A stretch of 64,000 nt of DNA from Pyrenophora tritici-repentis (Eukaryota > Ascomycota > Dothideomycetes > Pleosporales > Pleosporaceae): NCBI RefSeq assembly GCF_003171515.1, contig NC_089394.1, positions 372,001 through 436,000 of the forward strand, written 5' to 3'. The position numbers were made by a program, and so were the translations under genes. The notes beneath the pieces are model-generated. The model did not search any database. It was not told the DNA's origin and saw only the letters and a list, made by a program, of their open reading frames with translations. Shown one piece after another: positions 48,868 through 49,486 of the stretch; the stretch's first letter is position 1; every line of letters begins with the position of its first letter.

Positions 48868-49486
48868 CTACTGGTCGAGCTTTACGGGGAAGTTGCCGTT
48901 CTCTGGATTTCACGTGTTAGATATTTCCTGGGTCGGTGGTGTGATATAACATGATAAGACAATTCACGTCATCATGTGCAAAGCGCGCATGAAGGAGGCA
49001 AACTCACCACGCTGGTCGTCCCATCGCGAGGTCCAGCCGTTGGGGCATAGAGACCTGTAGGCCAACATGAACTGTTTCCCGTTAATACAACAAGTCCGAT
49101 GCTCGGGGCATATTCATTCATGGGGTGTTGCGCACCTGGCGGCAGGGGGCAAAGTCCTCGCCCTTGGCGATAATGCACTTGTGGTAGTCGACGTAGTTTT
49201 GCCAGCAGTGCTTGGTCTGGTTCTGGTTGGGGAAGCGGGCATCGAAGCCTATGCGCGCCGAAGCTTGTCAGTATCTCTCATGGGGTGTCTGGGGACCGTT
49301 TAAACGACTGTTCCGGGGGCGCTTGAGGTCGCAATGGGGTTTTGGAGGTGGCGTACCAGCTGCGGAGTGAAGGGTTAGCTATTTATTCGAGGGGATGCGG
49401 AGTAGCGGGAAAAGCTCACCAGTGACAAACTTGAAGGGCTTGGTTACGAGCTCGTCGCCGTTCTCGCCGTTCTCGTTGTCAGACAT
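48868..49486 (-). CDS. Cytochrome c oxidase subunit VIb (Cox12)
   Basis: A small intermembrane-space subunit of respiratory complex IV. The gene is split into five exons on the minus strand: 49486-49420, 49359-49357, 49248-49136, 49071-49008 and 48902-48868, giving 93 residues. The second exon would be only 3 nt (CTG); it is bordered by a full acceptor with a CTAAC branch point on one side and a GTACGC donor on the other, and adds one Ala before GFDARFPNQNQTKHCW. Twin-cysteine CHCH motifs are complete: C-x9-C (CWQNYVDYHKC) and C-x10-C (CRQFMLAYRSLC). The C-terminus reads DDQRENGNFPVKLDQ. The N-terminal 15 residues are acidic with no presequence, as usual for this subunit. It is divergent from the MLRQ-type gene. 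Confidence 0.92.

Follow-up and report, generated by a model that had tools for sequence, protein, structure and literature searches.

The COX12 gene of Pyrenophora tritici-repentis very probably contains a genuine, normally included exon of only three nucleotides, CTG, set between two ordinary introns that are removed one after the other, in an arrangement that is itself old. This is the best explanation of the observations as a whole; CTG inclusion in the mRNA of this species, the order of splicing, and the age of the arrangement are what we infer from them. The gene lies on the minus strand of a 64,000-nt stretch of genomic DNA (the window, whose coordinates are used throughout). A first-pass annotation of this DNA had favored a 3-nt exon over a single intron, and that preference is supported by solved protein chains, by 15/15 uninterrupted reading frames from relatives, by compatible donor residues in 28/28 read-through protein models, and by ordinary splice signals.

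Gene layout and splice signals

COX6B proteins carry four cysteines with CX9C and CX10C spacing, and C38, C48, C59, and C70 of the predicted protein fit this pattern and are invariant in 20 aligned sequences. The family assignment was supported by a Pfam match to PF02297 (80.9 bits versus a cut-off of 26), and the gene is the counterpart of yeast COX12. When the gene was reassembled from the window, the intron coordinates, lengths, and splice motifs reported in the first-pass annotation proved exact. The features are as follows.

49420..49486, minus strand: exon 1, 67 nt, MSDNENGENGDELVTKPFKFVT plus the first base of the next codon, ending ACTG
49360..49419, minus strand: intron 1, 60 nt, phase 1, GTGAGC...CTAAC...CCGCAG
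49374..49378, minus strand: putative intron 1 branch site CTAAC, branch A 15 nt from the intron end
49357..49359, minus strand: 3-nt microexon CTG, ending an Ala codon (G+CT) and opening a Gly codon (G+GC)
49249..49356, minus strand: intron 2, 108 nt, phase 1, GTACGC...CTGAC...CATAG
49267..49271, minus strand: putative intron 2 branch site CTGAC, branch A 19 nt from the intron end
49264..49265, minus strand: AG of the AAG acceptor in the rival model of database protein P0001, 4 nt past the branch A of intron 2
49136..49248, minus strand: exon 3 (GFDARFP...CRQ), assembled from the window
49072..49135, minus strand: intron 3, 64 nt, GTGCGC...ACAG
49008..49071, minus strand: exon 4, assembled from the window
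48903..49007, minus strand: intron 4, 105 nt, GTGAGT...CCAG
48868..48902, minus strand: exon 5 and stop codon, assembled from the window

With CTG included the coding sequence is 282 nt and encodes 93 aa (KPFKFVT-A-GFDARFP); with CTG skipped it is 279 nt and encodes 92 aa (KPFKFVT-GFDARFP). Both splice readings had been described as in frame, and this holds through exons 3 to 5. Microexons are defined as exons of at most 30 nt in the part of the literature used here (PMC7821500), and CTG fits this size definition, being 3 nt between a complete acceptor and a complete donor. Elsewhere in the gene, no CTRAY match was found near the end of intron 3, where TATTAAC may act as the branch site. Pfam matches near COX12 include POP1 of RNase P/MRP (43619-46195, minus strand), a DnaJ-domain protein (46746-47570, plus strand), an RRM protein (50788-51273, minus strand), and a WD40 protein that is SEC31-like by inspection (51938-54193, plus strand).

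Control introns from the same genome came from spliced alignments in which actin, tubulin, histone, and Ras-family sequences served as guides and GT and AG alone were scored. There were 30 control loci (L017, L037, and L040 were excluded, falling below the score or identity threshold), and the set comprises 67 distinct introns, some of which come from weak alignments and are possibly wrong. Site matrices were built from the 53/67 that end in YAG and contain a branch match. Median control intron length is 56 nt (n=67). CTRAY occurs 6 to 45 nt from the end in 57/67, the shortest distance being 8 nt with a search floor of 6. For intron 1, 26% of control sites score below the donor and 30% below the acceptor; for intron 2 the corresponding figures are 36% and 32%. 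GTGAGC occurs as a donor once elsewhere in the control set, and GTACGC twice. Overall, the splice signals of both COX12 introns are ordinary for this genome, and not exceptional.

Of 41 histone-family matches in this genome, 31 cover the same stretch of the profile (37-96) and lie in frames of 114 aa (for example C1:5718098-5718277 and C2:901991-902170; loci L019-L024). They probably represent the histone H3 transduplication that is named for P. tritici-repentis in the title of PMC3538342.

Within the 171 nt between exons 1 and 3 there are nine AG..GT pairs that enclose up to 60 nt, and the enclosed lengths that are multiples of three are 3, 51, and 54 nt. Internal exons other than CTG were rejected. 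Among them is the 51-nt one, which is that of the P. teres model; no more than 6% of control donors score below its donor, GTCGTT. Internal exons were also sought in the 13 control introns of at least 90 nt and none was found, a weak null result given that several of these introns are too short for two 40-nt introns.

If exon 1 were instead joined directly to exon 3 by a single 171-nt intron, giving T-G-F-D-A-R-F-P, the CTG and its flanks would be coincidental. Such an intron is in frame, and length is no argument against it because 3/67 control introns are equally long or longer. However, it must ignore an entire 60-nt intron inside it, branch site and acceptor included, and the nested signature is rare by chance. 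In the chance test the outer donor was fixed, as were the final branch site and acceptor, and a YAG-NNN-GTRNG exon with CTRAY before each acceptor was sought. Dinucleotide shuffles yielded such a 3-nt exon in 4/20,000 cases, and one coding for Ala or Val in 1/20,000. Overlapping stretches of the window, with the COX12 site excluded, yielded a 3-nt exon in 90/127,217 cases, none of them Ala- or Val-coding. The CTG arrangement exceeds chance.

Two complete introns may also be compared with a stwintron, in which one intron interrupts a splice signal of its partner; two adjacent introns leaving in succession behave alike. However, three bases separate donor 2 (GTACGC) from acceptor 1 (CCGCAG) here, each of the two signals is whole, and we see virtually no likelihood of a stwintron at this site.

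The junction residue in solved chains and relatives

One residue is kept at the junction in 7/7 displayed alignments to solved chains, five of which read T-V-G-F-D-A-R-F-P and two further ones T-A-P-F-D-S-R-F-P. The first-pass annotation had given a Val before GFDARFP in yeast, which agrees with the T-V-G-F-D-A-R-F-P of the displayed COX12 chains (6hu9 and 6ymx, which we take to be yeast).

For relatives, three protein searches matched 658, 652, and 589 clusters, and the best 120 of each gave 175 sequences. In two of the three, scoring was limited to the sequence downstream of the junction, avoiding bias from the form of the junction itself. Each cluster representative stands for up to 117 members, and all counts cover representatives alone. 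We distinguished a class of 15 un-annotated, uninterrupted sequences sourced only from jgi, merc, or lgn contigs (merc being, we assume, a metatranscriptome catalogue). Some of these frames are genomic rather than transcripts: P0085 and P0100 are genomic or locally unspliced because their frames continue through the downstream intron. Exactly one residue separates FVT from G in 15/15 of these frames (13 Ala, 2 Val).

The other 160 relatives are far more varied at this point, with one residue in 24, none in 29, an insert of other length in 80, and 27 that were unclassifiable (23 with an unrecognized exon 1 and 4 without the DARFP anchor). The one-residue models comprise 21 Ala and 3 Gly. Some of the representatives with no residue stand for large clusters, of 117, 75, and 61 members, as do two of the three Gly models, with clusters of 94 and 61. 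The Gly forms, which read VT-G-G in place of VT-A-G, are P0015, P0156, and P0164 (Trichoderma, Penicilliopsis, and Penicillium models), and may reflect a different microexon codon or another mis-join. Such disorder at one junction in models of a rigid protein would be expected if a 3-nt exon is beyond what gene predictors can place. The same junction is disordered in P0073, a fungal-type COX6B listed as a protein of the plant Corymbia citriodora (1,057-base contig), which, from its sequence, is probably contamination of that assembly. Orthologous COX12 DNA was sought in genome contigs (34 pattern matches) and viral contigs (54), and none was confirmed in either.

Orthologues that uniformly lacked the extra residue had been named as grounds for abandoning the microexon, and no such uniform absence is seen: the residue is absent from 29/160 annotated relatives and 0/15 uninterrupted frames. 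The first-pass annotation had also proposed looking for an Ala in related fungi; it is present in 13/15 uninterrupted frames, where the other two have Val, and in 21/24 one-residue models. For the single 171-nt intron, the 29/160 annotated relatives with no residue are a point in favor. That form occurs in 0/15 uninterrupted frames, however, and the displayed solved chains retain the residue it drops; we regard a single intron as exceedingly unlikely.

A related possibility is that CTG is a regulated cassette exon, with T-A-G-F and T-G-F both made in meaningful amounts. Phase 1 on both sides makes skipping frame-neutral, and a regulated microexon has a precedent in Trichoderma Xlr2, as described in a passage of PMC11121469. 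Against this, the residue is missing in 0/15 uninterrupted frames and is conserved in the displayed solved chains. Regulated use of this kind appears very unlikely, although a minor CTG-skipping isoform may exist. Normal inclusion of CTG remains the reading that we develop below.

Read-through models and the database protein

Models that read from the Ala codon into what would be intron 2 have the form VT-A-G-x. If the Ala codon in these is G+CN, it is followed by the final G of the microexon and then the donor, and donor bases 3-5 encode x. Among 28 such models x is T in 12, K in 7, M in 5, A in 3, and R in 1, and is compatible with a GTRNG donor in 28/28. By comparison, GTRNG-compatible residues make up 0.40-0.42 of other insert positions. 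The probability of 28/28 is near 1e-11 if the models are independent, a loose figure given that the species are related. P0089 (VT-T-G-K) does not begin A-G and stands outside this count, which takes in P0008 and P0163 as manual additions. The 28 models span Dothideo-, Sordario-, Lecanoro-, Leotio-, and Eurotiomycetes, where one or two species per class were looked up and the remaining species presumably belong to the same classes; Leotiomycetes are represented by P0051 alone. Behind donor 1, 34 VT-G-x models have a less uniform residue composition than is found behind donor 2. Donor 2 in a given relative is, on its own, no proof that the species also has intron 1.

Pairs of models from one species are informative here. 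Friedmanniomyces endolithicus has one VT-A-G-T and one VT-G-N model, with flanks identical at 16/16 and 68/68 positions. Verticillium longisporum has a model that skips the codon and a VT-A-G-T model, with flank identity of 15/16 and 68/68; with canonical sites, the skip model needs GT directly after exon 1. Judged by their sequences, both pairs look as would be expected from two introns around one codon. P0018, from an un-annotated 2,181-base contig, equals the Emericellopsis atlantica protein at 18/18 and 68/68 flanking positions and reads VT-A-G-T at the junction, where the annotated E. atlantica model has 49 residues. P. teres offers a further case. Its model P0005 reads A-G-T-P-L-P-K-Y-H-C-D-L-K-R-P-R-N-S, nearly identical to the translation of intron 2 from the window, A-G-T-P-P-P-K-P-H-C-D-L-K-R-P-R-N-S.

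The database holds another version of the P. tritici-repentis protein. P0001 (strain Pt-1C-BFP) is identical to COX12 of the window outside the junction, where its model has a single 156-nt intron with AAG as its acceptor (49264), 15 nt upstream of exon 3, giving T-A-S-A-R-I-G-F. This is the deposited protein and the sole record seen for the species. AAG also ends 5/67 control introns, of which two belong to the better-aligned genes L005 and L031, so the AAG letter is no argument against P0001; branch distance and unshared residues are. The acceptor has a low matrix score, but this is partly circular, the matrix set having admitted YAG only. The AG used by P0001 lies 4 nt past the CTGAC branch A, with the next CTRAY at a distance of 111 nt, whereas the control minimum is 8 nt (n=57). 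The additional S-A-R-I is missing from all 15 uninterrupted frames and from P. teres. We conclude that the P0001 junction is almost certainly wrong.

Proposed splicing, age, and comparison with known systems

Under the preferred reading, with CTG normally included, the exon would supply the single Ala that COX12/COX6B proteins keep before [G/P]-F-D-[A/S]-R-F-P. Short fungal introns are usually defined across the intron, and each of the two introns would most likely be recognized across itself, with both removed successively. Successive removal is suggested because three bases leave no room for a 3' splice-site complex alongside a U1 snRNP. U1 snRNA can contact three exon bases at a donor. Donor 2 would be unchanged by removal of intron 1 because CTG constitutes exon positions -3 to -1 of that donor. 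Skipping of CTG would keep the frame yet lose a conserved residue.

The double-intron arrangement would be old within Pezizomycotina, with gene predictors mis-joining the junction. It is likely that a constitutive 3-nt COX12 exon predates the split of Dothideo-, Eurotio-, Lecanoro-, Leotio-, and Sordariomycetes, that its splicing is obligatorily successive, and that it is mis-annotated in a sizeable fraction of the sequenced members of the subphylum. If so, CTG would be among the oldest known exons of such size. Confirmation would mean that fungal spliceosomes reliably include a 3-nt exon in a housekeeping gene though skipping is frame-neutral. It would also mean that many public COX12 proteins are wrong at the junction, as only 24/160 of the non-contig relatives have one residue there. 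Codon-sized exons in fungi would, on that account, merit a homology-guided search. The junction would also offer a natural test case for the order of adjacent-intron removal in many culturable species.

No report on a COX12 microexon was found among the literature matches listed (for example the best 20 of 254 and 20 of 4,631). Among those matches, the paper that contains both "cox6b" and "microexon" concerns mammalian SRRM2 (PMC11070786). The first-pass annotation had placed 3 nt near the lower limit of exon size, but 3 nt is not that limit, since passages of two papers describe 1-nt exons (PMC12940212; PMC8831610).

One of the closest known systems is in Fusarium, where CYP621A P450 genes contain a read-supported 1-nt exon, according to passages of PMC12940212. 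As in COX12, this is a filamentous ascomycete with a tiny exon between short introns, at a conserved motif and missed by annotation. The CYP621A exon is additionally backed by an intronless relative (PMC12940212). It differs in being 1 nt, so that skipping breaks the frame, whereas the COX12 exon is 3 nt and skipping is frame-neutral. Furthermore, as described there, it is limited to one subfamily in one genus and has read support, whereas the COX12 exon is predicted from sequence.

Plant APC11 and VPS55 contain 1-nt exons confirmed by RNA-seq and RT-PCR, and resemble COX12 in having an ultra-small exon across a large clade that is absent from reference annotations; in intronless copies the base is held within a larger exon. 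In the passages used, they differ from COX12 in being plant genes with transcript-confirmed exons of 1 nt (PMC8831610). Trichoderma Xlr2, like COX12, has a microexon in a filamentous fungus, but the part of the report used here describes a glucose-dependent transcription-factor switch, whereas that of COX12 is probably a constitutive housekeeping codon (PMC11121469). Stwintrons are similar in that two U2 introns are removed successively at one site in a fungal gene. In a stwintron (PMC6616335) one intron splits a splice signal of the other, whereas COX12 has two intact introns and retains three coding bases between them.

Overall, this kind of feature is already known because 1-nt exons and a regulated fungal microexon are in print. 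What is unusual about COX12 is the combination of codon size, a housekeeping gene, apparent spread across a subphylum, and frequent mis-annotation.
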